A DNA stretch of 64,000 nt from contig NZ_JAPPVQ010000017.1 in the NCBI RefSeq assembly GCF_026768455.1, positions 62,001 to 126,000 of the forward strand, read 5' to 3'. The number at the start of each line of letters is the position of its first letter. The stretch's first letter is position 1. Below are positions 782-32,163 of the stretch, piece by piece. Source of the DNA: Candidatus Nitrosotenuis cloacae. Lineage in GTDB: Archaea > Thermoproteota > Nitrososphaeria > Nitrososphaerales > Nitrosopumilaceae. The position numbers and the translations under genes were made by a program. Below the pieces are notes generated by a model. That model had not been told where the DNA came from. It searched no databases and saw only the letters and a list, made by a program, of their open reading frames with translations.

Positions 782-810
782 AAAAATAGATACTAGTTTG
801 ACCTACCTTG

Positions 811-1878
811 TTGAAAGGTATAATTCTACACGGAGGTCATGGAACAAGACTCAGACCACTTACACATACTGGTCCAAAGCAGCTGCTACCAATTGCCAAC
901 AAGCCCATGTCCCAGTTTTGCTTAGAGTCGATGATAGATGCAGGAATAAGGGATATTGCCATAATAATTGGCGGTACGGGCTCAAGCAAGGTAAAAGAGC
1001 ATTATGGAAATGGTGAAAAATTTGGTGTAAAAATCACCTACGTCGAACAGGATTATCCAAAAGGGATAGCTCATGCGATACGATTGTGCAAAGATTTTGT
1101 AAATAATGAAAAATTTTTAGTCTTTCTTGGAGACAACATCATACAAAAATCCATAGCCGAATATTCAAGAAACTTTGAAAAATCAGATGATGCAGCGTCG
1201 ATCTTATTGTGCGAGGTGGACAATCCAAGCAGATTTGGCATCGCAGACGTAAAGGACGGACAAATATTGAATATCATGGAAAAACCAAAAGACCCGCCGT
1301 CCAATCTCGCAGTGACTGGAATTTACTTTCTCACCCCAAGAATTTTTGATGTGATTGATAGACTAAAGCCATCTTGGAGAAACGAGTTTGAGATAACCGA
1401 TGCGTTACACATGCTGCTAAAAGAAAATAACAAAATCACCTACAACATGATAACAGATTACTGGAAAGATACAGGTACGCCGGAGGACATAATTCATGCA
1501 AATGGAGCAATCTTGGAAAAAATGACTCCATACTTTCTTGGCAAAAAAGAATCAAACGTTACGATTGAGGGGAAAGTCATGGTGGGCGAAGGCACAATAA
1601 TAAAATCAGGTTCAAAGATCATCGGCCCCGTAATAATAGGAAAAAACTGTATAATAGAGTCAAATACAGTGATAGGTTCCAATACAAGCATAGGAAATAA
1701 TTCAAGAGTGGCTTTGTGTAATATTAGTAATTCCATTGTAATGGAAGGCTGCAATATAGAATGCAACATTAAGATAAAAAATAGCATAATTGCGTACAAT
1801 TCTGCAATAACATATGATCAGACAGAACAGAATGAAAAAATCTTCCTTCTAGGAGAGGGAACAAGGATTACCATTTGA
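811..1878 (+). CDS. rmlA: glucose-1-phosphate thymidylyltransferase, long form
   Basis: Nucleotidyltransferase that makes dTDP-glucose (or UDP-glucose) from the sugar phosphate. The N-terminus KGIILHGGHGTRLRPLT is the nucleotide-binding signature, followed by GPKQLLPI. The last 120 residues are rich in hexapeptide-like repeats (I-G-N-N, I-I-x-G), so this is the long archaeal/actinobacterial form with a C-terminal left-handed beta helix. Two TTG codons occur in a row at 808 and 811. The second gives the usual start MKGIILHGG and is preferred. It lies downstream of rmlB in the same direction, probably in one transcript. Confidence 0.92.
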   Translation: MKGIILHGGHGTRLRPLTHTGPKQLLPIANKPMSQFCLESMIDAGIRDIAIIIGGTGSSKVKEHYGNGEKFGVKITYVEQDYPKGIAHAIRLCKDFVNNEKFLVFLGDNIIQKSIAEYSRNFEKSDDAASILLCEVDNPSRFGIADVKDGQILNIMEKPKDPPSNLAVTGIYFLTPRIFDVIDRLKPSWRNEFEITDALHMLLKENNKITYNMITDYWKDTGTPEDIIHANGAILEKMTPYFLGKKESNVTIEGKVMVGEGTIIKSGSKIIGPVIIGKNCIIESNTVIGSNTSIGNNSRVALCNISNSIVMEGCNIECNIKIKNSIIAYNSAITYDQTEQNEKIFLLGEGTRITI

Positions 1879-1923: not shown

Positions 1924-2976
1924 ATGAATACAAGTACAGACACTCCTCTTGTCAGCATAATTATTCTCAACTATAATGCAGGACAATTACTGTTTAATTG
2001 CGTTGAATCAATACTAAAGACAAGCTATTCCAATTTTGAAATCATCGTCGTCGACAATAATTCCCATGATCAGAGCCATACAAAATGTAAGGAGTTTTTT
2101 CCTCAGATCAAACTAATTGAGAATAAGAAAAATCTAGGATATTGTGAGGGAAATAACGTAGGCATAAGGTCAGCTACAGGGAAATTTATCGTAATCCTAA
2201 ATCCAGATACCATAGTTTCACAAAATTGGTTGGATGAATTGATTTTTGCATATAATAGAAATGGCGATGGTTTGTATCAACCAAAGATATTGTCGCTATA
2301 CGAGGATGGAATCCTGCAGAGTACCGGAAACATGTTACATGTTTTTGGATTCGGATTTGCACGAGATAAAGGAAATCCAGACGATTTGAAATACAACAAA
2401 GTTGAAGAGATCGGATATGCATCAGGAACATGTCTTTTTACGTCATTAGACGTTATGAAGAAGATTGGGCTTTTTGATCCCTTTTTGTTTTTGTATCATG
2501 ATGATTTGGATTTGGGTTGGCGTGCCTTCCAATTAAACATAAAATCATACTTTGTACCATCAACTGCGATATATCATGCGGAAAGCTATAGCCTAAGATG
2601 GAGCGAAAAGAAATTCTTCTGGTTGGAAAGAAACAGACGGTACTGTATGTTAACGCATTATTCTAAAGACACGTACAAGAAAATGCGATTTTCACTGATC
2701 GCAATAGAGCTCCTTGTGTGGGTTTTTTATTTAAAGAAGGGTTTTGTTGTAGCAAAAATAAAAGCAGAGATCGAGATTCTAAAGAACAGAAAACACATAG
2801 AAGAAAAATATCTGGAACTAGAAACAAAAAAGATTATTTCAGATGTTGAGATGATAAGACGCCTGCCGGACGAGATATTTGTGCCAAAAAATGTTTCAGG
2901 AGAGTATGGCAATAGAACATTTAATAGAATATTGTCACGATTGAGCAGAAAGATAAAAAGAGATATTCAATCATGA
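1924..2976 (+). CDS. glycosyltransferase family 2
   Basis: GT-A fold transferase that would add a sugar to a growing surface glycan. The N-terminus VSIIILNYNAGQLL and the segment FEIIVVDNNSHDQS are the standard GT2 nucleotide-sugar binding start, and ILNPDTIVS holds the metal-binding acidic region. The length (350 aa) and the internal FLFLYHDDLDLGWR resemble rhamnosyltransferase-type GT2 enzymes, which fits the upstream rmlB-rmlA pair. The C-terminus is basic and helical without clear membrane spans. Its last 10 bases overlap the convergent acpS-like gene. The acceptor sugar cannot be told. Confidence 0.88.
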   Translation: MNTSTDTPLVSIIILNYNAGQLLFNCVESILKTSYSNFEIIVVDNNSHDQSHTKCKEFFPQIKLIENKKNLGYCEGNNVGIRSATGKFIVILNPDTIVSQNWLDELIFAYNRNGDGLYQPKILSLYEDGILQSTGNMLHVFGFGFARDKGNPDDLKYNKVEEIGYASGTCLFTSLDVMKKIGLFDPFLFLYHDDLDLGWRAFQLNIKSYFVPSTAIYHAESYSLRWSEKKFFWLERNRRYCMLTHYSKDTYKKMRFSLIAIELLVWVFYLKKGFVVAKIKAEIEILKNRKHIEEKYLELETKKIISDVEMIRRLPDEIFVPKNVSGEYGNRTFNRILSRLSRKIKRDIQS

Positions 2977-3332
2977 GTGTTTATTTTTTCAGATATTACA
3001 ATACCCACAGCAGCATTTTTCTCGTGACTCAGTGATATCAGAAATACATAGTGGTTTGCATATCGTCCCTTTAATTTTACCACAGGTCTTAATTTGTAAT
3101 GCGATGTTTCAATATCCAACATTCGAATTTGTAGGCTGATCGACTTTTTTACAGCTTCTTTTATAGCGAATTTACCCGCAAAATGCTCTGCTGCATTTTT
3201 GTATTTCAGACAGTATTTTATTTCAGAAGGCGAAAACAGTTTCTTGTAGAAATTCGGTCTTGTGCGATATGGGATTTTCTTGAACTGTTCAATGTCAACT
3301 ATATCTATTCCAATGCCAAGTTTTTCAATCAT
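2967..3332 (-). CDS. acpS: holo-acyl-carrier-protein synthase (AcpS-type phosphopantetheinyl transferase)
   Basis: Transfers 4'-phosphopantetheine from CoA to a serine of an acyl carrier protein. Length (121 aa) and motifs match AcpS: GIDIVDI near the N-terminus with D10, and HFAGKFAIKEAVKKS with E59, the two residues that bind magnesium in this family. It is the last gene of a tight minus-strand operon with fkbH-like, ACP and MaoC genes, so its substrate is presumably the ACP two genes upstream. AcpS and ACP are normally missing from archaea, which have no type II fatty-acid synthase. The family call is strong; the pairing is inference from the operon. Confidence 0.9.
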   Translation of the reverse strand: MIEKLGIGIDIVDIEQFKKIPYRTRPNFYKKLFSPSEIKYCLKYKNAAEHFAGKFAIKEAVKKSISLQIRMLDIETSHYKLRPVVKLKGRYANHYVFLISLSHEKNAAVGIVISEKINTHD

Positions 3333-3336
3333 TTGT

Positions 3337-3774
3337 TCATCCGAGATTATCTCTCACCATAACTTTAGCAATGCCGTCAACAAGGCATTTGCCTAGATGA
3401 TCATAGGCCACAGTCTTGATTGTGATAATCCTAGTTGATTCGCTTTTATCAGTCACCTCTCCCTCTATGAAAACTGTTTCTCCCACGAAACAAGGAGCTT
3501 GAAAGTTCAGGGTTTGTGAAAAATACAGAGAGTTTTTACCAGGTAGATGCATGCCAACCAATCTGGAGAAAAACGATCCCAAAAGCATGCCATGACAGAC
3601 TCGTTTTTTGAAGTTTGTTGTACGGGCATAGTTTTCATCCATATGTAGCGGGTTATAGTCGCCAGATACACTTGCGAAATCTGTTATCATGTTTTCATCA
3701 ATGGTTACGGTAAATCGCGCTTTTGTTCCTATTTTTATTTCGTCAAACGAATGTGAGGGAATGTTTTCAGTCAT
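3337..3774 (-). CDS. MaoC-type (R)-specific enoyl hydratase/dehydratase
   Basis: Hot-dog fold protein of the MaoC hydratase family, which adds water to or removes it from enoyl or 3-hydroxyacyl thioesters. The hydratase-2 motif is visible as SGDYNPLHMDENYA, giving the expected catalytic D39 and H44, followed by VCHGMLLGSFFSRLVG, a conserved helix of the family. At 145 aa it is a single hot-dog domain that would dimerise. It overlaps the ACP gene by 8 bases, so the two are probably translationally coupled and the substrate is plausibly an ACP thioester. In archaea this family also serves CoA-linked pathways, so the carrier is not proven. Confidence 0.88.
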   Translation of the reverse strand: MTENIPSHSFDEIKIGTKARFTVTIDENMITDFASVSGDYNPLHMDENYARTTNFKKRVCHGMLLGSFFSRLVGMHLPGKNSLYFSQTLNFQAPCFVGETVFIEGEVTDKSESTRIITIKTVAYDHLGKCLVDGIAKVMVRDNLG

Positions 3775-4006
3775 TTAGTATGATCCCGTGATTTCCCAAA
3801 TGCCTTTTGATGTCAGATACTTTTTTGACATCCATTGCTTCGTCTATAGTAAATTTGACTTTGAATTCGGTTTCAAGCTCGTACAACAACACATAGCCCT
3901 TAAATGAAGACCAACTTTCAATTGATTCTGGCCCAGATGCATCGTCAATACTAGATTCTGGCACATTCATCACCTTTGCAATAAGTGCATAGAGTTTTTT
4001 TGACAT
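3767..4006 (-). CDS. acyl carrier protein
   Basis: A 79-residue acidic helical protein of acyl-carrier-protein size. The predicted attachment site is S34 in ESWSSFKGY, which aligns with the WDSLxH motif of ACPs that work with FkbH-type enzymes. The usual aspartate before the serine is replaced by serine. The following segment LLYELETEFKVKFT is the recognition helix, and VKKVSDIKRHL is the fourth helix. The gene shares one base with the upstream fkbH-like gene and overlaps maoC downstream. The family assignment rests on length, motif, and the presence of AcpS and FkbH next door. Confidence 0.82.
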   Translation of the reverse strand: MSKKLYALIAKVMNVPESSIDDASGPESIESWSSFKGYVLLYELETEFKVKFTIDEAMDVKKVSDIKRHLGNHGIILND

Positions 4007-5760
4007 TATTCAGCACAAACTGTCAAGCATTTTGGGATCTCAAAAGACGAGCTGAGTGAATAAATCCAAAAATCCCCCTCTTTGTAGAACCCGCAATTCG
4101 GCAAAAAATCTTCAATTGGTTTGTTTTTCTGTGTCGGGACAAACTGTGCTCTTATCTTTTCTATACCATTCTCTTTTGCCTTGTTAATGATATATCCGAT
4201 TATACCTTTTTCAACTTCTCTGCCCATCACACGACAGCTAAGAAGAAATGTATCTATGAACCATTCTTTTGGTTGATCTTTTTTAACAATAAAGACCCCA
4301 GTGATGCCATTGTCACCGAATTTGTCTTCTACTTGCGCACAGCCAACCAGATATTGTTGATCTGCTACAAATCCTTTGATATCCGATTCTTGGTATCTTT
4401 TTGTTGTTAGATTGAATTGATTCGTTTTCAATGTAAGTTGAGAAATTCTTGGGATGGTAAAATCATCTGCAGTTTTTATGATCACCTTAAGATCTAGTTG
4501 TTCTAGAAAACTTTCCAAGTCAGGCACGGATTGTTGCAACTCGTTCCTTTTTCGCTGTTCAAGATACATCTTTCCCCTTTGCGCATCTTCTTGAGTTATT
4601 TTCAATACGCTGAATTCATTCATTTCTTTGAGAATCTTTGCATAGATAGATGGATCTTGTGGCAAATCCAGGGTAAGAACTTCAGGAACACCAATTTGCA
4701 TGTATTCTCTGTTGACAGGATCATCGTCGAAAAACACAATGCTGTCCAATCCTATGTTGAGATCATTTGTAATTTCTTTCATGTTTTTTATTTTATCATT
4801 CCAGTTTATCTTAATGGCGCTAAAATGCTCTTCTCGCAGAATCATGTACGGATGTTCTTTTATGACTCTCATTGCGTCGTCGTAGTTGTTTTTACTGTTA
4901 ATTGCAAGGATTATTCCACGCTGATGCAAGGAAAGCAATACTTTTTGAAATTCGACGAATGCGTTCCCAGGAGGCTCAAGACCTAATTTTATTCCATTAA
5001 ACCCATCTTCACCGACTATGCCACCCCATAACGTATTATCCAAGTCAAGTACAATGCATTTTTTTGCTATCCCAAGATGTCCAATTACATAACTCATCAG
5101 ATCGTTTGCAAGGTGTGGGAGATACTCAATCGCAATTTTTATGTCTCCTACAAGAAATTGTTGGTAATTAAAGATGTTTTCCTCACCATATCTGGAAACA
5201 AATCTTTCAAAATCATAAATAAAAACAGAATCAGAGTCAATGAAGCTTGCATTTAATTTTTTGTTTAGATCTTCAATCATCTCATGAAAACCATACTCAG
5301 ATTTTATTTCAGATATTCCATACGGTGAGTAAAACGGGACATGAAAATTTGCAATGACCATCTTTGACTTGAGTTTCATTGCAAAGGCTTGAGTCAATTT
5401 TTTTATTTCATCCAACTTTGCTCCTACATGTGTTCTCCTTTCGGTCACCGAATTGGAATAGGGAAAATAAAACATATCTCCCAATACATTCCTCGTATCA
5501 AGGATTAAAAAACAGATGTCAGGATTAAATTCATAGAGCTTGCTATTTTGATTCAAAATTTCCTGGTTGTACTGATCATAGTTTCCCACATACGTCACAC
5601 ATTCAATGTTTTTTTCAGCACATTTTACACGAAAAATTTCTTCAAGACCATTTATAGTAAAACTACTCAAAAATGCAATTCGGATTTTTTTGCCAAACGA
5701 TCTCACTCCTAACTCACCAGCCTTGTTAAGGTAGTAAGATAATTTCTGTTCAGTAGTCAT
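4006..5760 (-). CDS. FkbH-like HAD-IIIC phosphatase/acyl loading protein
   Basis: FkbH-family proteins take an acyl phosphate (1,3-bisphosphoglycerate in known cases), remove a phosphate and load the acyl unit on an ACP. This 584-aa protein has an N-terminal SGNH-like region (residues about 25-220), then the HAD domain with the DxDxT motif VLDLDNTLWGGIVGEDG (D239, D241), IVFFDDDPVNREYM as motif III, and a C-terminal GNAT-like domain (about 430-570) with NQFNLTTKRY and FLLSCRVMGREVE. This is the full architecture found in surface-polysaccharide loci. It heads the operon with ACP, MaoC and AcpS. A TATA-like element lies about 25 bases upstream of the ATG. Confidence 0.9.
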   Translation of the reverse strand: MTTEQKLSYYLNKAGELGVRSFGKKIRIAFLSSFTINGLEEIFRVKCAEKNIECVTYVGNYDQYNQEILNQNSKLYEFNPDICFLILDTRNVLGDMFYFPYSNSVTERRTHVGAKLDEIKKLTQAFAMKLKSKMVIANFHVPFYSPYGISEIKSEYGFHEMIEDLNKKLNASFIDSDSVFIYDFERFVSRYGEENIFNYQQFLVGDIKIAIEYLPHLANDLMSYVIGHLGIAKKCIVLDLDNTLWGGIVGEDGFNGIKLGLEPPGNAFVEFQKVLLSLHQRGIILAINSKNNYDDAMRVIKEHPYMILREEHFSAIKINWNDKIKNMKEITNDLNIGLDSIVFFDDDPVNREYMQIGVPEVLTLDLPQDPSIYAKILKEMNEFSVLKITQEDAQRGKMYLEQRKRNELQQSVPDLESFLEQLDLKVIIKTADDFTIPRISQLTLKTNQFNLTTKRYQESDIKGFVADQQYLVGCAQVEDKFGDNGITGVFIVKKDQPKEWFIDTFLLSCRVMGREVEKGIIGYIINKAKENGIEKIRAQFVPTQKNKPIEDFLPNCGFYKEGDFWIYSLSSSFEIPKCLTVCAE

Positions 5761-5880: not shown

Positions 5881-6414
5881 ATGAATGACAAAACAGGAGA
5901 TACCATTTCTGCAAACGAGAAGGAGCTTCTCGAGTACTATGGTTATAAGGGAGAAAGCGGAAGACTCAGACTTCGGTTCAGGTTTTTGAGGTCTTGGATA
6001 TTACATTCATTGGCATATTCTTCCCCCCATCCAGGTTTTGTGACAAGTATGCAACGCGCACGAGGAGTCAGAATAGGGGAAAATTGTCACATTTCCCCTT
6101 ACGTCCTAATCGACTTGTTGTATCCCCAACTTGTAACCATGGGAGACAACATTACAATTGGAAGTAATTGCCTAATTTTTGCACACGTCAATCCTACGGC
6201 TAATGCATTCTTAAAAAAAGAATATCCACGTAAAGTAAATCCAGTCAATATTAAAACAGGTGCAGTTCTTTTTCCAGGAAGCATAATAACTGCAGGCGTT
6301 ACAATTGGAGAAAACTCTGTTATAGGTGCGGGGAGTGTGGTTTTTGAAGATGTTCCAGACTATTGTGTAGCAATAGGCAATCCCGCACGGGTTGTAAAAA
6401 AAATTGAGCATTGA
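5881..6414 (+). CDS. hexapeptide-repeat O/N-acetyltransferase
   Basis: Left-handed beta-helix acyltransferase of the maltose/galactoside acetyltransferase type, 177 aa. Hexapeptide repeats run from about residue 60 to 170 (RIGENCHISPYV, TIGSNCLIFAH, VTIGENSVIGAGSVV) and end in the family's typical VAIGNPARVVKK. It would transfer an acetyl or other acyl group from CoA to a sugar hydroxyl or amine. It is divergent from the fkbH operon with a 120-base shared promoter region and is followed by a polysaccharide deacetylase gene. An acyl-ACP donor is possible given the neighbouring module, but nothing in the sequence shows it. Confidence 0.88.
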   Translation: MNDKTGDTISANEKELLEYYGYKGESGRLRLRFRFLRSWILHSLAYSSPHPGFVTSMQRARGVRIGENCHISPYVLIDLLYPQLVTMGDNITIGSNCLIFAHVNPTANAFLKKEYPRKVNPVNIKTGAVLFPGSIITAGVTIGENSVIGAGSVVFEDVPDYCVAIGNPARVVKKIEH

Positions 6415-6437
6415 AATTCTAATCACATTGCTTGCAA

Positions 6438-7289
6438 ATGAGCGATAAGATGAACATACTTGGAATAGATTTTGAGGACTGGTTTCACCCACAACTAGTT
6501 CAAAACCACATTGGCGGAATGAAGAAAGAACCATCAGTAATCAGAGGAATCGAAAAGATTCTGGATCTATTAAGAGTAAACGAGTCATATGCAACATTTT
6601 TTGTTGTTGGAGAGCTGTTAGAATACGATCCGTCACTTTTAGACAAGATAGTTGAAAATGGTCACGAGATCGGATTTCACACAATGCATCACAAGAGATT
6701 GGACTCTTCTAACCCCCAAGAATTTTCCGAGGAACTGGCAGCATTTGATAGAATTACCAATCACCGCTCAAAGGGTTTTCGTGCTCCCACCTTTTCACTA
6801 AACCAAGATAGTGCTTGGGCAATAGATACACTGATTGAACACAATTATGTTTACGATAGCAGTGTAGTTCCGGTAAAGACTAGCATGTATGGACTGCCCA
6901 ATGCAGAGACGCGACCGTACAGGATTACAAGCTCTTCTCTTGAGAAAGACGATGCAAATGGCAAATTACTTGAGTTTCCTCTAGCCACGGGCAAGTTCAT
7001 GACTAAAAAAATTCCCATCGCAGGCGGATTTTATTTGAGATTTTTACCCATGTCTACAATCAGGAGGGCAATTTACGAATATGAAAAACAAGATATTCCC
7101 GCAACATTCTACATACATTCTTGGGAGCTGACACCAGAATACATGCCGCGGATCAAGATGCCATTTAAAGACAATTTTGTAACATACTACAATATTGAAA
7201 GGGCGTTTTCAAAAATGAAGCATCTTTTAGAGAACTTCACTTTTACATCATTTGATCGGTTTCTCACTAGAAAAGGCCTACAGTTGTAA
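6438..7289 (+). CDS. polysaccharide deacetylase (NodB-like, DUF3473 type)
   Basis: Metal-dependent carbohydrate esterase family 4 enzyme that removes N-acetyl groups from a glycan. The start NILGIDFEDWFHPQ contains the paired acidic residues of the NodB fold, HEIGFHTMHHKRL is the metal-binding HxxxH motif, and GFRAPTFSLNQ is the RxP motif. The C-terminal part with TFYIHSWEL is typical of the exopolysaccharide-locus subfamily. It can start at TTG 6432, ATG 6438 or ATG 6450; ATG 6438 is chosen. There is no signal peptide, so it would act on a cytoplasmic lipid-linked precursor. It overlaps the convergent epimerase gene by 12 bases. Confidence 0.87.
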   Translation: MSDKMNILGIDFEDWFHPQLVQNHIGGMKKEPSVIRGIEKILDLLRVNESYATFFVVGELLEYDPSLLDKIVENGHEIGFHTMHHKRLDSSNPQEFSEELAAFDRITNHRSKGFRAPTFSLNQDSAWAIDTLIEHNYVYDSSVVPVKTSMYGLPNAETRPYRITSSSLEKDDANGKLLEFPLATGKFMTKKIPIAGGFYLRFLPMSTIRRAIYEYEKQDIPATFYIHSWELTPEYMPRIKMPFKDNFVTYYNIERAFSKMKHLLENFTFTSFDRFLTRKGLQL

Positions 7290-8228
7290 AGAGCGAAAGT
7301 GCTGTATCGTATTTTGTACCCCCTGTCGTATTGTAACTCTTGGTTTCCATCCTAGGGATCTGAGTTTAGAGTTGTCCACAACAAAATTTCCAACGTCAAC
7401 TTTTTTCGTATAGGTTGGAGAATTTACGTATTTTATCTCTGCATTGGTCATACTACCAAGTAATCTGCCCAATTGATGGAACCAGAGTTTTGTGCCAGAC
7501 GAGATCCAGTAAGTGTTCCCAGATTTGCCTTTTTTCATGATTAATGTTATTGCAGAGATCACGTCGGAAATGTAGATCAGATCCCGGTATAACTTGCCAT
7601 TGTTGAATAATGTGACCTCTTCCCCCTTGTATGCTTTGTAAATTAGAAAATTTACAGCGTTTTTGTTTGGAGTGTATTTTTCCCTTGGCCCAAATGAATT
7701 AGTTATGCGAAAGATAACGGTGTCCAAGCCATACACGTTATGATAAATTTGGCAGTAATGCTCGCTGGCCAAGCGATTTGTACCATAAATTGTAGTGGGG
7801 CGACATGGTGTCTCTTCATTGACAGGGAGTTTTTTTGGTTTACCAATTACTATGAATGTGCTTCCAAGAAGGAATCTGCATTTTATCCCCAGGGTTCTAA
7901 TTTTTTCTAGAATAAACAGAGTCGATTTTGTGTTTGCATCGATGTCATACATAGGATCCTCAAATGATTTAGAGTGTGATGTTTGCCCCGCAAGATGAAT
8001 TATTACGTCAGGTTTGTGTTTTTCAATGTTTTTTCCAAGTTCATCAAATTTTGTTATGTCTATTTTTTCCAGTGTTATTTTATCGAGAATATGCGAAATG
8101 TTATCTAATTTAGATTTGGGTCTTGTGAGAACTATGATTTTGTGATCAGTCTGGACGAGTGCGTCAGAAAGGTGGCTTCCCACAAATCCCCCCCCTCCCG
8201 TAATCATGATTTTCACAAATGTAAACAA
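7278..8228 (-). CDS. NAD-dependent sugar epimerase/dehydratase (extended SDR)
   Basis: Extended short-chain dehydrogenase acting on a nucleotide sugar. The Rossmann motif GGGGFVGSH is at the N-terminus and VIIHLAGQTSHSKSF is the conserved second strand. In the active site the usual YxxxK reads YGTNR, with arginine in place of lysine, so the enzyme may be atypical. GWKPRVTIRQGVQNTI closes the substrate domain. Alternative starts are the GTG at 8216 and the ATG at 8207, either of which would put the Rossmann motif nearer the N-terminus. Divergent from the FkbM gene across 66 bases. The substrate is unknown. Confidence 0.85.
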   Translation of the reverse strand: MFTFVKIMITGGGGFVGSHLSDALVQTDHKIIVLTRPKSKLDNISHILDKITLEKIDITKFDELGKNIEKHKPDVIIHLAGQTSHSKSFEDPMYDIDANTKSTLFILEKIRTLGIKCRFLLGSTFIVIGKPKKLPVNEETPCRPTTIYGTNRLASEHYCQIYHNVYGLDTVIFRITNSFGPREKYTPNKNAVNFLIYKAYKGEEVTLFNNGKLYRDLIYISDVISAITLIMKKGKSGNTYWISSGTKLWFHQLGRLLGSMTNAEIKYVNSPTYTKKVDVGNFVVDNSKLRSLGWKPRVTIRQGVQNTIQHFRSLQL

Positions 8229-8294: not shown

Positions 8295-9068
8295 TTGAGT
8301 GCGAGCTTAAAAGTTAAGATTGAAATTCTGTGCAAAGCAGTCAAAATACTCAAAAACTGGCATATCTACGTAGCATCCTATTTTCATCTTGTAAAAGACG
8401 ACGTTATTTTAGAAACTAGAAGTGGAATGAAAATCAAAGTAAGAACAGGATCAACTGATTTGATGGCCTTTACGAATGTATGGATATTACAAGAGTACCA
8501 TAAACCAAGCTTTGAAATTAAACACAATGACACCATAATTGACATAGGAGCACACGCTGGATTTTTTGCACTCTATGCCGCACAATATTGTAACACTGGA
8601 CGCATTTTTTGCTTTGAGCCAGTAAGTGACAATTTCAATTTACTTGTAGAAAACATACGCATCAACAAATTGACCAACATAACTTGTTATAATAATGCAG
8701 TTTCAAATCAGGACAAGGTTGTTCGCATTTATCTTAATAGTACAGATCAAGCCGCACACAGTGTTTATGGGGATGGGAAAGAATACATCGAAGTGGCTGC
8801 AACAACACTGAACGACATTATTAACGTAAACGGTATCAAAGTTGTTAATTTTCTCAAATTGGATTGCGAGGGATCGGAATATGATGTCTTACAAGCAACC
8901 TCAAACGAGCACATGAAAAAAATTCAGAAGATTTGCCTAGAATATCACATTTCAAAAGACGATCACACGTCACTCAATCTGTTAAAGAATCGGTTGTTAT
9001 CGCTGAATTTTCGAATTATTGATAATTCAACCACAAGCGATCTGGGAATACTATATGCAAGTAAATAA
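8295..9068 (+). CDS. FkbM-family methyltransferase
   Basis: SAM-dependent methyltransferase of the FkbM family, which O-methylates sugars. The SAM site is DTIIDIGAHAGFFALYAAQ, with the acidic ribose-binding loop IFCFEPVSDNFNLL. The family signature FLKLDCEGSEYDVL is present near residue 200. Starts at TTG, preceded by an AT-rich stretch with TATA-like sequence around 8265. At 257 aa it is a normal length. Part of the glycan-tailoring set, and it may methylate a sugar added by the adjacent GT4. Confidence 0.88.
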   Translation: MSASLKVKIEILCKAVKILKNWHIYVASYFHLVKDDVILETRSGMKIKVRTGSTDLMAFTNVWILQEYHKPSFEIKHNDTIIDIGAHAGFFALYAAQYCNTGRIFCFEPVSDNFNLLVENIRINKLTNITCYNNAVSNQDKVVRIYLNSTDQAAHSVYGDGKEYIEVAATTLNDIINVNGIKVVNFLKLDCEGSEYDVLQATSNEHMKKIQKICLEYHISKDDHTSLNLLKNRLLSLNFRIIDNSTTSDLGILYASK

Positions 9069-11605: not shown

Positions 11606-12556
11606 ATGCGTAGAAAGATCATGATTTCATTGTTTTGTTCTGCAGTTATTGTCGTATTGATGTTGTATGTTATAATGGATTTGTATTTGTATACTTATGA
11701 TCCAACATGGCGCGGAATAATAAATTCCAGACATATTCAAGAAAAACCATATGTCTTTATTCTTGGAGCAAGTTACGCATATCCCATTAATGCAACTCAC
11801 GTAGCGGAAAGTTTGGAGAAGAACGATCTTGAATATGAAATATACAATTTAGCTGATATGAGTGACACACCAACTCACCGATTAAAGAGTTTGGAGCATT
11901 TAATTTCACTAAAACCAGAAGTGGTGATTTACTGCGTGAGTATAACCGATTTTGAGAATCCAGTTACACAGTCAGACATAATGAATAGATCTTCCACAGA
12001 TGAGTTTGAGACATTAAATCCCAAAAAAGAAATTACGAAGATTCTATCCATGACAACACAGAATAATTTAGATGGGAAATTTCCTACTTCACCAAAAGAA
12101 AGAACAATACTATCAATAAAATATCTGATAAGAGGACCAGAATTTATCCACAATCCATTCATAAATTATAAGATAACTCCCGTTACAGATGAGAAGACTT
12201 TTGATGCAAAGTATAATTTCACTTTCAGGGGAGTCGATACATCATATAATAATGAGGAACGAATTGCTCTTCAAAAAATAATTACTGAACTAAAGAAGAA
12301 CAACACCAAAATAATATTATTCACAGCACCGCACCACAAAGTGTTTCTTGACGCCGTAGGAGAATCTAATCTAATCGTTTTTGAATCCATCATGACAGAG
12401 ATTGCTAAACAAAACGATATTGATGTCCATTTTTTACACGACAAGTATGAAGAAATGAACATTTGGAGGGATCCACACCACATCGCAGTAAACAAAGAGG
12501 CAGTAATTTACAGTGATGACATTGCAAGCATACTTGAAAAAGAGCTGGAAAACTAA
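11606..12556 (+). CDS. AlgJ/DltD-like SGNH acyl-transfer partner of MBOAT
   Basis: A 316-aa protein with one N-terminal membrane segment (about residues 5-28) and an extracellular SGNH-hydrolase-like domain. The block I nucleophile region is FILGASYAYP and the block V Asp-His dyad is WRDPHHIA near the C-terminus. Its stop codon overlaps the MBOAT start (shared base 12556), the same pairing as AlgI-AlgJ/AlgX in alginate O-acetylation. It probably accepts an acyl group passed across the membrane by the MBOAT and places it on a glycan. A TATA-like TTATAAAAAAAG lies about 40 bases upstream of the start. Overall identity to characterised members is not visible, so the role is by architecture. Confidence 0.72.
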   Translation: MRRKIMISLFCSAVIVVLMLYVIMDLYLYTYDPTWRGIINSRHIQEKPYVFILGASYAYPINATHVAESLEKNDLEYEIYNLADMSDTPTHRLKSLEHLISLKPEVVIYCVSITDFENPVTQSDIMNRSSTDEFETLNPKKEITKILSMTTQNNLDGKFPTSPKERTILSIKYLIRGPEFIHNPFINYKITPVTDEKTFDAKYNFTFRGVDTSYNNEERIALQKIITELKKNNTKIILFTAPHHKVFLDAVGESNLIVFESIMTEIAKQNDIDVHFLHDKYEEMNIWRDPHHIAVNKEAVIYSDDIASILEKELEN

Positions 12557-14028
12557 TGCTGTTCAATACTTTAGATTTTGTAATTTTCTTTATAGTTGTA
12601 CTTACCACATTTGTGATTATAAAAAATAGAAAGTTCCAGCACCTATTCTTGTTATTGGCCAGTTATTTTTTCTTTTATTATTCAAGTAATTATTTGATAA
12701 CACTTTTAATTTTTACCACAATTTGGGATTTTTATTTTGGCCAACTAATCTACAAAGCTGACAACGTCGCCAGAAAGAAATTGTATTTAATAGTCAGCCT
12801 TGCAGGAAATTTAGGTCTGCTTGGTTTTTTCAAGTATGCCGATTTTGCAATAACACAATTCAATTTTCTAGGACATTATTTTGATCTTGGTATAAACATA
12901 CCCCTGCTAAATTTGGCATTACCCATTGCAATTTCGTTTTACACTTTCCATTCAATTACGTATACAGTAGGAATCTATAGAGGGCAATTGGAACCTGCAA
13001 GAACATTTACAGAGTATGCTATTTTTGTAGCAATTTTTCCGCAACTTGTTGCAGGTCCCATATTGAGAGCTAAGGAATTTTTACCGCAACTCAGAGACAG
13101 AATAGAAAACTCTCATGTCGGAGGAAGGCTTCGCCAGATCGTAATTGAAAGATCCAATCTGAAATATGGTATTACATTAATGATGTTTGGTTTTTTCAAA
13201 AAAATGTTTTTTGCTGATAACATTGCGCCCTTGGTAAACGATGTTTTTTCTAATCCCATAGGCCATGACTCCTTGACAATCATTCTAACAGCAATAGCTT
13301 TTGGTATTCAGATATACTGCGACTTTTCTGGATATTCAGACATTGCAATTGGTGCAGCACTTATAATGGGATTTAAAATCCCAATTAATTTTAACAAGCC
13401 ATATTTTGCAATATCGCCTCCAGATTTTTGGAGAAGATGGCACATTTCCTTGTCCACATGGTTAAGAGACTATCTTTACATTCCACTTGGCGGTAATCGC
13501 AAATCGAATTCTAGAACTTATTTGAATTTGTTCGTTGTCATGTTTTTAGGTGGATTGTGGCATGGCGCATCATGGAATTTTGTCATTTGGGGCACATTAC
13601 ATGGAACGTACTTGGCACTACATCGTGTAATGGTTAACCGATTTCCAAATTTGACCGGAATTAATTTAGAAAAAAATAGAATGCTGAAAATTCTAACAAT
13701 TATAGCGACTCAATATCTTGTATTTTTTGCTTGGATACCATTTAGAATACGAGATTTTGATGGTATGATGTATGCGATGCAGAAATATGTGATGATAGAC
13801 GTATCAGTTTCTTCATTTATAGAAACCATCAGATCATTTGAAATACCTGTGATGCTCATAGTAGCATTTTTTATCATACATTACATATCTTATAAAAAAC
13901 AGAATATGGTTGAGATTGTGTCCAAACTAAAGATGACTCGTTGGTTCCTATTTTCTACAGCTTGTGCTCTTTTAATCGTGTTATTCTACGGTGGAAGTCC
14001 GAGTGAATTCATTTATTTTGAATTCTAA
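12556..14028 (+). CDS. MBOAT-family membrane-bound O-acyltransferase
   Basis: Polytopic membrane acyltransferase of the AlgI/DltB type, 490 aa with around ten hydrophobic segments. The catalytic-histidine region is GGLWHGASWNFVIWG (H336), and a second conserved histidine follows in GTLHG. SPPDFWRRWHISLSTWLRDYLYIPLGGN is the family's most conserved part, quoted here only by its key residues WRRWH and PLGG. It would move acetyl or another acyl group from a cytoplasmic CoA or ACP donor through the membrane to the AlgJ-like partner encoded just upstream. Confidence 0.92.
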   Translation: MLFNTLDFVIFFIVVLTTFVIIKNRKFQHLFLLLASYFFFYYSSNYLITLLIFTTIWDFYFGQLIYKADNVARKKLYLIVSLAGNLGLLGFFKYADFAITQFNFLGHYFDLGINIPLLNLALPIAISFYTFHSITYTVGIYRGQLEPARTFTEYAIFVAIFPQLVAGPILRAKEFLPQLRDRIENSHVGGRLRQIVIERSNLKYGITLMMFGFFKKMFFADNIAPLVNDVFSNPIGHDSLTIILTAIAFGIQIYCDFSGYSDIAIGAALIMGFKIPINFNKPYFAISPPDFWRRWHISLSTWLRDYLYIPLGGNRKSNSRTYLNLFVVMFLGGLWHGASWNFVIWGTLHGTYLALHRVMVNRFPNLTGINLEKNRMLKILTIIATQYLVFFAWIPFRIRDFDGMMYAMQKYVMIDVSVSSFIETIRSFEIPVMLIVAFFIIHYISYKKQNMVEIVSKLKMTRWFLFSTACALLIVLFYGGSPSEFIYFEF

Positions 14029-14061: not shown

Positions 14062-14724
14062 TCAATCAAGCGTAAATTGTATTGACGGCCTTTTTACATC
14101 TTTTGTGATATAACGACTTCCATGCCACGAAACTGGGGTCTCTTTAAAGAGCACCATCGTGTTATCAAGATTATGTGGTTCAAAGATGATAGATGATTCA
14201 TCTTCATTAGCACATATATAAGTTCCACCAGGATCGCCCTTGTTCCAATCTTTTGCAAGATACATGAGACAAGTCATTTTGTAACCACCTACAGCATTTT
14301 GGCTTTCTCCAAAATGATGGTGGGGCATATTAAAATCTCCTTTTCCATTAATAATAAAGATAAAATGTCGTAATTTTGTTAATTTGATACCAGAGTATGC
14401 ACTCATTTTTTCAATAAAATCTTTGGAAAATAAATAATGATGGAAATCATTCCATTCTTTGCTTAGAGATGGATCATCACTATCAACTGCTACTCTCCAA
14501 TCATCTTTTCCAAAATACCTTTTTTTTGCAGATCTTGTCATATCTTGTGGAATATACCAACGATCATCTTCTTTTGGAAAAGTCTTGCGCAATTTCTCAT
14601 AGAGATCTCTTTCCAAAACCTCTTCGATAAATCCATATGGGAATGGTTTATTATTTTTAAAAGTTTGTGAATTTGCAAGAATGTTGTTCCAGTTAAACAT
14701 TGTAAAATTCTCCTTCATAGTCAT
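14062..14724 (-). CDS. 2-oxoglutarate/Fe(II)-oxygenase-like protein
   Basis: A 220-aa protein whose C-terminal half looks like the double-stranded beta helix of prolyl-4-hydroxylase-type dioxygenases: LMYLAKDW, GGTYIC, the distal histidine in PVSWHGSRY and the 2OG-binding arginine in KRPSIQF. The position of the usual HxD proximal iron ligands reads PHHHFGES, so the acidic ligand is not in the normal place. It starts at ATG 14724 or at MFNW at 14700. It lies 5 bases downstream of an SRPBCC-type gene on the same strand. It may hydroxylate a sugar, lipid or peptide; the substrate is unknown. Confidence 0.7.
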   Translation of the reverse strand: MTMKENFTMFNWNNILANSQTFKNNKPFPYGFIEEVLERDLYEKLRKTFPKEDDRWYIPQDMTRSAKKRYFGKDDWRVAVDSDDPSLSKEWNDFHHYLFSKDFIEKMSAYSGIKLTKLRHFIFIINGKGDFNMPHHHFGESQNAVGGYKMTCLMYLAKDWNKGDPGGTYICANEDESSIIFEPHNLDNTMVLFKETPVSWHGSRYITKDVKRPSIQFTLD

Positions 14725-19071: not shown

Positions 19072-21042
19072 ATGATTAAGGTAAATAGTTCACAGTTTAA
19101 CTACCAATATGGAGATCAGATCCACTTTCCATACAGTATTGCATCTTTGGTCGCATACATAAATTCTACAGACGTAGCACCACATTTCAAGTTTGAAAAA
19201 GCATTTGTTTTCAGAGACAAAATAGACGAATACATTCAGCAATGCAAAGATACCGACATTTTGTTGTGTTCTTGTTACGTATGGAATTGGGAGATAACAA
19301 AACACCTTGCACGCGAAGTTAGAAAATTAAATCCTAAATGCATGATTATATTCGGCGGCCCACAGATTCCAGAATTGTCACAAGGATTTTTTGAGAAACA
19401 TCCCTATGTGGACATTATAGTGCATGGAGAGGGCGAGCATGTATTGGAGAACACACTCAGGACATACCTTGGAAACAAAGACTTTGCCAGTGTCAAAGGA
19501 ATAGAGACGAAAGACTTTCGAACTCCCCCGCAAGAGAGAATCAACGATTTGGACAGCCTACCTTCACCGTATCTCACAAACACCGTGTGGGATCTAGTCG
19601 ACAAGGTAGACGGCGTCAGATGGATTGCATCGTGGGAGACCAACAGAGGGTGCCCTTACCAATGTACCTTTTGTGATTGGGGTAGTGCGACATTTACAAA
19701 GATGCGAAAATGGGAGGAGACCAGATTATTTAAGGAAATAGAGTGGTTTGCAGACAACAAAATTCCATACATTGATTGCTGCGATGCCAATTTTGGAATA
19801 TACCAAGAAAGGGACTTTCGCCTTGCACAGAAACTAAAGGAGGTAGCCCTCAAAAAACACTATCCGGAGAGGATCCGTCCTGCGTGGGCAAAAAACTCTT
19901 CAGAGAAGATAATCCCAATAGCAAAGGAATTGCAGGAAGGCGGCATACTCGGTGCAGTCACCCTTGCAGTACAATCACTTGACAAGAACACTTTGAACAT
20001 CATAAAGCGTGCCAACATCAAATTCGACAAGTTCGCCGACCTTACAACATCCTTCAAGCTTGCAGGCATACCCACCTACACTGAGATAATCATGGGGCTT
20101 CCAGGAGAGACTCTTGAGAGCTTCAAGAACGGTCTTGAGGATATTGCTAGAACAAAGATCGGAATAGTATTCATTTACAATTGCAGCGTACTACCCAATG
20201 CCCCGATGAACGTTCCCGAATACAGGAAGAATCACCAAATCGAGACCATTAGTTCGCCAATCATGCTGGTTCACTCGTCCATACACAGACGAGGCATACA
20301 GGAATATGAAGAGATCATAGTAAGCACGAGCGATTGCACCAAGGACGAACTAAAGGAGATTTACCTTTATTCCTGGGCCTTTTTGACGCTGCACAGTTTG
20401 GGCATTCTCAAACACGTTGCGGAGTATTATCACCAGACTCACGGTTTACCGTTTATGAAATTCTACGAGACGCTAATCGAGTATTGTAGGTCAGAGCAGT
20501 CGATTTTTTCAGAAGAGTTCCAAAAAATAGTCAAGTACAGAGACGACGGATACTCAGGCAGAGGATGGGATCATCATGATTCCAATCTCGGGGAGATAAA
20601 CTGGCCAATCGAGGAGGCAAGTTGGCTGCGGCTATCATACGACAAAACTAGGCTGGCCGATGCGATCGAGTCGCTATTGAAATACCTAGAGAAAAAGATG
20701 CAATACAACACTTCAGAGTCCATAATAAAGGAGCTTGCCAAGTTTCAGTGCTTTTTGCTCACAACCAGGGACGACAAAAACGAGGTTAAGGTGGAGTCTT
20801 TTGGGCACGATTGGAAGAGTTTCTTTGTGAATAACATTCCGCTAAAACCTGCAAGCAAGACATATTATTACAAAAACTCCGTAACGGAACCAGACCCGGT
20901 TCTATGGAATTACAAGGTAATCTGGTACGGAAGGAGATCCCACGACTACAAATGTGATCCAGAGAACCTGCAAGAAGAGCAAAGCCATCCTGATCAGTTG
21001 TTGACGATGAAGATTCCTCATGGCACACCTCAAGCAAACTAG
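19072..21042 (+). CDS. B12-binding-domain radical SAM protein
   Basis: A 656-aa enzyme with an N-terminal cobalamin-binding-like domain (residues about 20-140, including MIIFGGPQIPE) and a radical SAM domain with the cluster motif C194-x3-C198-x2-C201 in RGCPYQCTFCDWG. The radical SAM core continues through TEIIMGLPGETLESF. The long C-terminal part (about 430-656) is not recognised. Cobalamin radical SAM enzymes often do C- or P-methylation, but some only use the fold. Its GC content (52% in a counted line at 19921-19980) is well above the AT-rich neighbours. A TATA-like TTATAAG lies 30-36 bases before the ATG. Confidence 0.85.
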   Translation: MIKVNSSQFNYQYGDQIHFPYSIASLVAYINSTDVAPHFKFEKAFVFRDKIDEYIQQCKDTDILLCSCYVWNWEITKHLAREVRKLNPKCMIIFGGPQIPELSQGFFEKHPYVDIIVHGEGEHVLENTLRTYLGNKDFASVKGIETKDFRTPPQERINDLDSLPSPYLTNTVWDLVDKVDGVRWIASWETNRGCPYQCTFCDWGSATFTKMRKWEETRLFKEIEWFADNKIPYIDCCDANFGIYQERDFRLAQKLKEVALKKHYPERIRPAWAKNSSEKIIPIAKELQEGGILGAVTLAVQSLDKNTLNIIKRANIKFDKFADLTTSFKLAGIPTYTEIIMGLPGETLESFKNGLEDIARTKIGIVFIYNCSVLPNAPMNVPEYRKNHQIETISSPIMLVHSSIHRRGIQEYEEIIVSTSDCTKDELKEIYLYSWAFLTLHSLGILKHVAEYYHQTHGLPFMKFYETLIEYCRSEQSIFSEEFQKIVKYRDDGYSGRGWDHHDSNLGEINWPIEEASWLRLSYDKTRLADAIESLLKYLEKKMQYNTSESIIKELAKFQCFLLTTRDDKNEVKVESFGHDWKSFFVNNIPLKPASKTYYYKNSVTEPDPVLWNYKVIWYGRRSHDYKCDPENLQEEQSHPDQLLTMKIPHGTPQAN

Positions 21043-30925: not shown

Positions 30926-31077
30926 GATATGTAATAATTTGAGACATATATCAAGATTATAAACAAGAGTTCTATTCAGATCGGTTCAAAAATCAGCGTT
31001 ACAAAGTAGATCGAATCATGCGTATTCATGAGCATGTCTTAATATGAGAGAGTTGGCTTGTTTTGCTTGAAGCAGTA

Positions 31078-32163
31078 TTGAAAATTCTTATTGCATATGG
31101 CAGCAAGGGAAAATTTTTTCACATGAAGGAGTTTGCCAATTCACTGGAAAGACTTGGTGTGCAATGTGAATTAGTAAAAGATACTGACTATAGCAGAGGA
31201 TTCCCAAGTAAAAATCCAAGAGACTGGTTTTGTGGAAGCAGTAAATTAAAAAAACTGCTAAAGAACACGAAACCAGATGTAGTGTTTATTGACAGGCAAT
31301 CACATTTTGGATTGAATGTGCTGAAGGCAAAGATCCCACTTTTTGTATTGTTACGAGGGCATTATTGGTCAGAAATTGAATTTGCAAAAAAAACGCTGTA
31401 TCATGGAGCATTAATGCGTCTAGTGCTTTGGTTTAGAAACAGAATTGCTGAGAAGATCTTCGGCGGCGCTACGGTAGTACTCCCAATTTGCAGATACCTT
31501 GAGAGTGTCGTAAAACAGCATCATCCAAGACAGACAACTGCCGTATTTTTTGAGGGGATCAACTCCTCACACTGGCATCATACCGAGAGCATGAAACTGA
31601 AACATCCCTGTGTTGGACTATTACAAGACGCAAATTGGTGGGGAAAAACAAAAGAGATGTTGATATTGAAAAAAGTCTTGGAGGCAATGCACGATGTAAA
31701 CTTCTATTGGGCTGGAGATGGACCCTTCAGAGACCAGATAGTTGCAGAGCTAGGCAAATTTGATAATTTCAAGTGGTTGGGTAGACTGGATTATCCAGAC
31801 AAAGTTCGTGAGTATCTTGGCGAAATTGATGTTTATGCCCTAATCAGTGGAATGGACTTGGCACCGCTTACCTTGAAAGAAGCTCAGCTCATGGAAAAAC
31901 CAGTCGTAGCCACAAATGTCGGAGGAATACCTGAGATGATGCAGGATAAAAAAACAGGATTTCTAGTTAACGAAGGAGATCATCAGGATTTAATTGAAAA
32001 GCTGTCAACTCTGATATCTGATAAAAACATGGCAGACAAGATGGGCAAAAATGGTCGCAAATTTGTTGAGGAGACGTTCAGTTGGGACATAATTGCACGC
32101 GACTTTCTTGATGTAGTCAAACTTAACATGCACAAAGATCGAAAATCACAGATTCCAAAATAA
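31078..32163 (+). CDS. glycosyltransferase family 4
   Basis: GT-B glycosyltransferase of about 361 aa. Visible are KILIAYGSKGKFFHMKEFA at the N-terminus, KHPCVGLLQDANWWGKTKEM, and the donor site SGMDLAPLTLKEAQLMEKPVVA. A close paralogue lies at 39908-40963. The start is placed at TTG 31078 by comparison with that paralogue, whose sequence begins at the same point. A TTG at 31063 would add five residues. The two copies probably add sugars of similar kind. Confidence 0.85.
   Translation: MKILIAYGSKGKFFHMKEFANSLERLGVQCELVKDTDYSRGFPSKNPRDWFCGSSKLKKLLKNTKPDVVFIDRQSHFGLNVLKAKIPLFVLLRGHYWSEIEFAKKTLYHGALMRLVLWFRNRIAEKIFGGATVVLPICRYLESVVKQHHPRQTTAVFFEGINSSHWHHTESMKLKHPCVGLLQDANWWGKTKEMLILKKVLEAMHDVNFYWAGDGPFRDQIVAELGKFDNFKWLGRLDYPDKVREYLGEIDVYALISGMDLAPLTLKEAQLMEKPVVATNVGGIPEMMQDKKTGFLVNEGDHQDLIEKLSTLISDKNMADKMGKNGRKFVEETFSWDIIARDFLDVVKLNMHKDRKSQIPK

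Follow-up and report, generated by a model that had tools for sequence, protein, structure and literature searches.

FkbH-type loaders are paired with acyl carrier proteins (ACPs) in polyketide and tetronate pathways, where the glyceryl-ACP pairs OzmB, Mad7/Mad8 and Mad14/Mad12 combine, as does the archaeal locus analysed here, a TIGR01686 FkbH carrying the HAD residues with a stand-alone ACP. Nod-factor assembly, with its NodB deacetylase, NodA acyltransferase and NodF ACP, proceeds by deacetylation followed by N-acylation from an ACP, the order that we model below. In Campylobacter jejuni, the pseudaminic acid (Pse) of flagellin bears a 5-N-(2,3-di-O-methylglyceroyl) group, a precedent for the exchange of N-acetyl for N-glyceroyl (PMC3068675), and the glycan locus includes cj1302, a gene with an FkbH domain (PMC7099621).

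Archaea are generally thought to do without ACPs, save for a few horizontal acquisitions (PMC3533463). The statement in a first-pass annotation of the present locus, that archaea normally lack ACP and AcpS, holds in general, though exceptions that arose by horizontal transfer are known. Bacterial-style carrier chemistry for surface-sugar acylation was not found described for ammonia-oxidising archaea in the literature that we searched.

An intact carrier-protein module

The window (the whole stretch of DNA analysed, 64,000 nucleotides of Candidatus Nitrosotenuis cloacae) contains the following genes in and around the module.

808..1878, plus strand: sugar nucleotidyltransferase with a hexapeptide tail (PF00483, 4e-61), a conserved outer flank by gene order
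1924..2976, plus strand: GT2 glycosyltransferase, 350 aa (PF00535, 1e-25), convergent with AcpS
2967..3332, minus strand: AcpS, holo-ACP synthase, 121 aa
3337..3774, minus strand: MaoC-type (R)-hydratase/dehydratase, 145 aa, D39/H44 dyad, in the variable tailoring slot
3767..4006, minus strand: ACP, 79 aa, predicted phosphopantetheine site Ser34
4006..5760, minus strand: FkbH-type loader, 584 aa, with FkbH_N domain, HAD-IIIC domain and C-terminal acyltransferase-like part
5881..6414, plus strand: hexapeptide (left-handed beta-helix) acyltransferase, 177 aa (PF00132, 5e-13), divergent from FkbH at 120 bp
6432..7289, plus strand: polysaccharide deacetylase (DUF3473/XrtA-type), 285 aa (PF01522, 5e-17; PF11959, 5e-34)
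7278..8228, minus strand: NDP-sugar epimerase/dehydratase-type SDR, 316 aa (PF01370, 2e-52), a frequent neighbour by gene order
8295..9068, plus strand: FkbM-family methyltransferase, 257 aa (PF05050, 8e-19)
11606..14028, plus strand: AlgJ-like protein and MBOAT (MBOAT PF03062, 5e-31), in the locus but not conserved with the module

The tight four-gene operon reported in the first-pass annotation is borne out: transcription would run from FkbH (5760-4006) through ACP (4006-3767) and MaoC (3774-3337) to AcpS (3332-2967), with overlaps of 1 nt (FkbH/ACP) and 8 nt (ACP/MaoC) and a gap of 4 nt before AcpS. Gene families and context likewise agree with its description of a complete module (loader, carrier, primer and tailoring enzyme) within an archaeal glycan locus. 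The GC content of the locus (0.36) is in keeping with the whole left 38 kb of the window (0.38) and lower than that of the right part (0.49).

The ACP scores 19.4 bits against PF00550 as a single sequence, slightly short of the 20.8 cut-off, and a PF00550 scan across the host genome did not recover it; detection needed a profile built from its relatives. A profile of 19 homologues matched 40 distinct PDB sequences, every one an ACP (best 3e-11), and the AlphaFold model (pLDDT 90) returned ACPs as its Foldseek matches, with a TM score of about 0.8. Ser34 sits where helix 2 begins, in a conserved [DTS]-S-[FLM] motif; it is invariant in all 45 homologues and is also present in sequence A1. By profile, predicted fold and invariant serine, the 79-aa protein is a genuine ACP, as had been proposed, and its phosphopantetheinylation is predicted. 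The module AcpS is the sole PF01648 protein (4e-12) found by profile search of the host genome. It matches AcpS structures in the PDB, passes the cut-off of TIGR00556 (62 bits), falls under that of the equivalog TIGR00516 (52.7 against 59.8 bits), and conserves the Mg-binding D10 and E59 and the following K63.

The loader is well above the TIGR01686 cut-off (319 against 147 bits, E=4e-95) and also matches PF21211 (2e-11). Its HAD residues D239, D241, S289, K323, D345 and D346 and the C-terminal C509 do not vary among the 31 archaeal and 6 bacterial sequences compared, and the host genome encodes PGK, the source of 1,3-bisphosphoglycerate. From its sequence, FkbH probably charges the ACP with a three-carbon group of the glycerate type. 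The residue beside the HAD serine is Asn288 in 31/31 archaeal sequences and Cys in 5/6 bacterial ones, so substrate or mechanism could differ in archaea. This Cys is also absent from the sixth bacterial sequence and may not be a defining feature. In the FkbH tree the bacterial sequences are all plasmid-borne and sit on long branches, and the tree singles out no donor.

The MaoC protein (PF01575, 1e-22) is closest in the PDB to the (R)-specific enoyl-CoA hydratases 5cpg and 1iq6. It has the hydratase-2 motif with the Asp/His dyad (SGDYNPLH), in which D39, P42 and H44 reach at least 95% conservation across 25 sequences.

Distribution and strict partners

We found the ACP in 42 of 400 sampled Nitrososphaeria genomes, mostly in glycan loci. 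The first-pass annotation had asked whether the block is a routine part of a known pathway; roughly 10% of the sampled genomes carry it, and the literature searched held no described pathway for it. Searches of openly licensed papers for FkbH in Nitrosopumilus, ACP in glycan loci of ammonia-oxidising archaea, HAD-IIIC with ACP, and FkbH with lactyl or bryostatin gave nothing relevant.

Locus neighbourhoods were compared by profile annotation of their genes. The order AcT/PDA-FkbH-ACP-(MaoC or VOC)-AcpS-GT2 is maintained across several families, and most loci with context have the GT2 gene as the same flank. In 35 of 45 ACP loci FkbH is immediately followed by the ACP gene, mostly with the 1-nt overlap, and the adjacency is therefore not due to chance. 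In one genome of another class (L113) the same genes adjoin an STT3/AglB oligosaccharyltransferase. In most genomes compared STT3 is 57-84 kb from the module; we take this looser proximity as weak evidence, since the region is the same but its synteny is shared by descent.

Immediately upstream of the module lie its strict partners, the hexapeptide acyltransferase and the deacetylase. Within the family, 31 of 34 ACP-positive genomes have the acyltransferase, as do none of the 39 lacking ACP (Fisher 1.5e-17, not corrected for phylogeny); the deacetylase is present in 30/34 and 2/39, respectively. H102 of the acyltransferase is retained in 30/32 sequences; H83 and H87 of the deacetylase are invariant, and the latter protein matches TIGR03006 at 2e-62, under the equivalog cut-off. 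In 11 other loci, too, the module has an FkbM methyltransferase homologue nearby. The first-pass annotation had missed the acyltransferase/deacetylase partnership.

The MaoC position is an exchangeable tailoring slot, another feature that had gone unnoticed. Behind the ACP, MaoC is found in 25 loci, an epimerase-like VOC protein in 9 and both together in 0; the slot can also be empty, and a ketoreductase is sometimes added. The best matches to this ketoreductase in the host genome have 21-25% identity, and no close relative is encoded there.

A putative route to acyl exchange on surface sugars

Since a sugar deacetylase and an acyltransferase accompany the module, it probably serves an acyl-group swap on a surface sugar. 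We propose a dedicated pathway (PMC8949500 is among the papers cited for it) in which AcpS would convert the ACP to its holo form at Ser34, and FkbH would take 1,3-bisphosphoglycerate from the cell's phosphoglycerate kinase, remove the phosphate and leave the ACP charged with glyceryl (2,3-dihydroxypropionyl) as a thioester. The third-slot enzyme would then alter the alpha and beta carbons of the thioester, by MaoC dehydration here, and through the VOC protein in other lineages, sometimes with the ketoreductase. The polysaccharide deacetylase, likely the enzyme that frees the acceptor amine, would strip N-acetyl from an amino sugar. The hexapeptide acyltransferase, likely the user of the charged ACP, would move the acyl group onto that amine, giving an N-acyl-exchanged sugar in the surface polysaccharide or N-glycan. 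The FkbM-type methyltransferase may O-methylate the product, on either the acyl group or the sugar.

The steps are read from the gene set, families, catalytic residues and phyletic coupling, and we hold the pathway as a whole with middling confidence. The earlier suggestion of a glyceryl-type group for surface-sugar decoration is supported, by inference from sequence, as the most likely reading. Several observations count against the pathway, among them the Asn288 of the archaeal loaders and the lack, in this genome, of a close relative of the ketoreductase. In addition, the acyltransferase looks like those acetyltransferases that use acetyl-CoA; a Methanosarcina plasmid encodes a 50% identical acyltransferase with a deacetylase and no ACP nearby; and the N-glycan of Ns. 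viennensis, the sole Nitrososphaerota N-glycan that we found described, bears N-acetyl groups and no glyceroyl (PMC12153357), which would tell only if that strain carries the module.

The fate of the glyceryl group can be drawn out further, tentatively and with confidence well below even. MaoC might dehydrate glyceryl-ACP to enol/pyruvoyl-ACP, the ketoreductase, where present, might reduce this to lactoyl-ACP, and VOC lineages might epimerise the glyceryl. The module would then be a line that tailors three-carbon acyl groups from 1,3-bisphosphoglycerate, and archaeal surface sugars would receive them as pyruvyl, lactyl or L-glyceryl amides. We know of no experimental precedent for MaoC acting on glyceryl-ACP.

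It is also conceivable, if rather doubtful, that the product is not glyceryl-derived, with FkbH loading a different phosphorylated short acid or MaoC hydration giving a 3-hydroxyacyl group. The fixed Asn288 of the archaeal loaders and the nearness of MaoC to (R)-specific enoyl-CoA hydratases fit such a product, and an AMP ligase replaces FkbH as loader in some loci (L067, L068, L102), so that the partners of the ACP can serve other acids. However, the HAD catalytic residues and C509 are all kept, no ketosynthase is seen among the annotated neighbours, and VOC and MaoC exchange in one slot as they do in bacterial FkbH loci.

A Dlt-like export, in which a DltB-like MBOAT and an AlgJ-like protein move the acyl group of the ACP across the membrane onto the finished glycan, we consider unlikely. 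The MBOAT matches DltB (TIGR04091, 3e-42, below cut-off) and lies within three genes of the ACP in four loci (L041, L047, L051, L068); co-occurrence of ACP and MBOAT is 12/27 against 2.8 expected (Fisher 2e-6), and the bacterial loci L083 and L084 cluster ACP, FkbH, MBOAT and VOC. Yet 30 of 42 ACP-positive genomes, complete ones among them, lack the MBOAT, 15 genomes have it without ACP, and AlgJ-MBOAT is a self-standing pair elsewhere, mostly in ACP-free settings. In the window the pair is some 6-8 kb off, with AlgJ starting 5.8 kb and MBOAT 6.8 kb away from FkbH, and neither gene is conserved as a neighbour. The link between this pair and the module, drawn in the first-pass annotation, was accordingly downgraded after the co-occurrence and neighbourhood tests. 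A separate candidate for FabH, c109 of L041, proved to be AlgJ-like.

That the module belongs to a small fatty-acid or polyketide pathway is very improbable: the module does hold components of type II FAS (ACP, AcpS and MaoC, joined in some loci by a FabG-like SDR), but neither the ketosynthase and MCAT expected with the ACP of a type II fatty acid synthase nor an enoyl reductase was seen among the annotated neighbours, which are glycan genes, and the module is coupled to genes for sugar acylation and deacetylation. Patchy distribution, low GC and decayed copies in G073 and G107 might suggest a fragment that was gained recently and does not function, but this is scarcely credible: the window copy is intact, and in several families, with 31 full-length archaeal FkbH sequences among them, catalytic residues and gene order are preserved.

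About one in ten sampled Nitrososphaeria genomes has an intact, recurring, dedicated ACP/AcpS set, and this set is linked to surface-glycan genes and not to lipids. The surface of these abundant ammonia oxidisers is accordingly predicted to bear a specific acyl group other than acetyl, for which glycoproteomics can search, and the MaoC/VOC exchange, which recurs with FkbH in bacteria, makes the tailoring chemistry testable.

Comparison with known systems

Unlike the polyketide and tetronate pairs, the archaeal module has no PKS, FabH or dehydrogenases; it has its own AcpS, a glycan locus, and Asn for Cys beside the HAD serine. It shares with the Dlt system of teichoic acid D-alanylation a small carrier with a dedicated loader, and a DltB-like MBOAT is present in the locus. 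However, the MBOAT is not conserved with the module and no DltA-type ligase accompanies the window ACP, so that the set of DltA-like ligase, DltC, DltB MBOAT and DltD is not found together. Nod-factor assembly differs in its long-chain acyl group, unrelated acyltransferase family and secreted oligosaccharide product.

Bacterial plasmids carry loci with either content of the tailoring slot. FkbH occurs with MaoC and/or SDR in Rahnella, Erwinia, Maritalea and Niveispirillum (L086, L120, L121, L122), and FkbH-ACP with VOC, MBOAT and an SGNH/AlgJ-like protein (L083, L084) in Rhodobacteraceae SC52 (ACP-FkbH-MBOAT-SGNH-VOC-hexapeptide transferase) and Sinorhizobium meliloti (VOC-MBOAT-SGNH-ACP-FkbH). 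The FkbH identity to the archaeal module is only about 27-32%, no AcpS was seen in the bacterial clusters, and in the VOC loci the main partner is MBOAT and not the archaeal type of acyltransferase.

The C. jejuni flagellin locus (Cj1295, Cj1302), likened here by description and not by sequence, has an FkbH gene in a surface-glycan locus and a proposed removal of N-acetyl followed by addition of glyceroyl. Its deacylase is aminopeptidase-like, whereas that of the archaeal module is of the polysaccharide-deacetylase family, and its acceptor is a nonulosonic acid, whereas we model an amino sugar. The genes of an N-glyceroyl swap, namely a deacylase, FkbH/ACP and an acyltransferase in one glycan locus, are all present in the archaeal module.

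The four genes and their products

The acyl-carrier-protein (ACP) module is real and recurring. Its four genes lie on the minus strand exactly where the first-pass annotation had placed them; two of the junctions overlap, by 1 nt and 8 nt, and 4 nt separate the genes at the third. They are listed here together with neighbours discussed below:

2967-3332, minus strand, AcpS
3337-3774, minus strand, MaoC-type hydratase (the tailoring slot)
3767-4006, minus strand, 79-aa ACP with Ser34
4006-5760, minus strand, FkbH
5881-6414, plus strand, hexapeptide acyltransferase
6432-7289, plus strand, polysaccharide deacetylase
11606-14028, AlgJ/MBOAT pair

Family scans of the window proteins identified FkbH (TIGR01686, 4e-95) and left the assignments of MaoC and AcpS beyond doubt. 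The 79-aa protein scored 19.4 bits against PF00550, slightly below the cut-off, and escaped a PF00550 scan of the whole genome. It is nevertheless an ACP, because a profile built from 19 homologues matched 40 distinct PDB sequences, every one an ACP, because its predicted structure contains the ACP helices (TM ~0.8 to ACPs), and because all 45 homologues keep the serine of its W-x-S motif; the first-pass annotation had staked the identification on such profile placement and on retention of the serine. The module AcpS is the sole PF01648 protein of the genome (99% complete), and no PF01648 protein was found in any of four archaeal control genomes.

The FkbH HAD set (D239, D241, S289, K323, D345, D346) and the C-terminal Cys509 are kept in all 31 full-length archaeal and all 6 bacterial sequences, while the position beside the HAD serine is Asn in archaea and Cys in 5 of 6 bacteria. 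Also retained are the MaoC Asp/His dyad, D, E and K of AcpS, both metal-site histidines of the deacetylase (26/26 sequences) and the acyltransferase His (30/32).

Gene order, partners and distribution

Across 45 ACP neighbourhoods annotated by profiles, one layout keeps returning. The genes for the deacetylase and the hexapeptide acyltransferase diverge from FkbH, which is followed by the ACP, the tailoring gene and AcpS; a convergent GT2 gene closes the set. In 35 of the 45 loci the gene immediately 5' of the ACP is FkbH, and AcpS (35) and the acyltransferase (30) lie within three genes of the ACP. Many loci without one of these in place are broken off at contig ends; where three genes are present on both sides of the ACP (31 loci), each of the three is found in 27. 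An FkbM-type methyltransferase (window 8295-9068) recurs nearby in 11 other loci. L051:9945-12239, another compared locus, has one FkbH gene between two ACP genes, and AlgJ-MBOAT upstream.

The partner-gene search covered 73 genomes, 34 with the module ACP and 39 without. The acyltransferase was present in 31/34 and 0/39, respectively, and the deacetylase in 30/34 and 2/39 (Fisher 1.5e-17 and 1e-13, descriptive values, given that related genomes are compared and that the ACP-free set came from earlier search listings). The three exceptions for the acyltransferase are two genomes with decayed modules (G073, G107) and one with an ACP but no FkbH (G239). The AlgJ/MBOAT pair, the partner hinted at by the first-pass annotation, gives way to these genes: MBOAT is absent from 30 ACP-containing genomes and present in 15 without the ACP, and away from the module MBOAT loci mostly show AlgJ-MBOAT with no ACP. 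An optional role for the pair remains, since it lies within three genes of the ACP in four loci. On a Methanosarcina sp. Kolksee plasmid (L123, 7292-9501), a deacetylase and an acyltransferase 50% identical to that of the window occur with a phenylacetate-CoA-ligase-like gene, and no ACP or FkbH is near them.

The module ACP occurs in 42/400 Nitrososphaeria genomes (23/220 good genomes; 11/82 genera) and FkbH in 40/400, in a closely similar set. Across the phylum, FkbH exceeded its cut-off in 12/300 genomes, one of them (G409) outside the class; there AcpS-FkbH-ACP, with acyltransferase, deacetylase and a VOC protein, adjoins an STT3/AglB oligosaccharyltransferase. The FkbH tree sets the archaeal sequences, as a single group, against bacterial, plasmid-borne ones. 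Sequences from another family are interspersed with those from the window's family, a pattern suggestive of within-class transfer. In G073:C52 and G107:C2 FkbH is interrupted by several stop codons, and both genomes lack a matching acyltransferase.

GC content is ~0.49 right of 40 kb and 0.38 in the left 38 kb of the window (1-64000); the whole glycan region is therefore compositionally distinct. Further modifications are possible through a 2OG-Fe(II) oxygenase-like protein (14062-14724) and a B12-binding radical SAM protein (19072-21042) encoded there. Two similar glycosyltransferase-like ORFs (31063-32163 and 39908-40963), sharing FIDR..HFG and VGLLQ.AN stretches, are apparently a duplication.

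The tailoring slot and loader variants

Behind the ACP, MaoC is found in 25 of the 45 loci and a VOC protein in 9, never both together; neither is present in three loci that come from two distant families. By its matches, the VOC protein resembles methylmalonyl-CoA epimerase (4e-22, under the equivalog cut-off) and also glyoxalase structures. An extra FabG-like SDR is found in three loci (L041, L044, L050).

The loader varies too, an AMP ligase standing in for FkbH in L067 and L068. L067:9475-12110 and L068 combine ACP and acyl-AMP ligase with AcpS and the same acyltransferase as the module; in L068 they are immediately followed by AlgJ and MBOAT, which makes a Dlt-like archaeal gene set. L102:3374-6400 reads MaoC-SDR-ACP-AMP ligase, with a FabG-like SDR and a divergent ACP. 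It represents another type of module, and its genome carries FkbH-ACP-VOC as well.

Proposed chemistry and known systems

FkbH enzymes charge an ACP with glyceryl taken from 1,3-bisphosphoglycerate (PMC7489565, PMC8949500), and the genome encodes PGK; the module FkbH would do likewise. Since MaoC and VOC proteins both act beside a thioester, the tailoring slot probably remodels the ACP-bound glyceryl unit. Dehydration of glyceryl-ACP would, on chemical grounds, give pyruvoyl-ACP, which a ketoreductase could convert to lactoyl-ACP; the window's genome has no protein closely related to the module ketoreductase. That deacetylase and acyltransferase accompany the module suggests that an N-acetyl group is replaced by the ACP-borne acyl group. 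The module described in the first-pass annotation stands in outline, but its partner and what MaoC does had to be revised. At the level of glycan structure, the single Nitrososphaerota N-glycan for which a description was found carries N-acetyl groups along with a proposed carboxamide, and no glyceroyl (PMC12153357).

The same logic has been proposed for Campylobacter flagellin, in which di-O-methylglyceroyl takes the place of the 5-N-acetyl of pseudaminic acid (PMC3068675) and the glycan locus contains an FkbH gene (PMC7099621). A tblastn search of plasmids returned FkbH relatives of 26-34% identity. The loci read ACP-FkbH-MBOAT-SGNH-VOC-hexapeptide transferase in Rhodobacteraceae SC52 and VOC-MBOAT-SGNH-ACP-FkbH in Sinorhizobium meliloti (SGNH assigned by sequence reading and position); in Rahnella, Erwinia, Maritalea and Niveispirillum, FkbH is followed by MaoC and SDR, separate or fused. 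The same two tailoring options, MaoC and VOC, therefore accompany FkbH in archaea and bacteria alike. Acyl supply by FkbH and ACP is already known from bacteria; what is new is the archaeal version, which brings an AcpS, an acyltransferase and a deacetylase of its own and an exchangeable tailoring slot.
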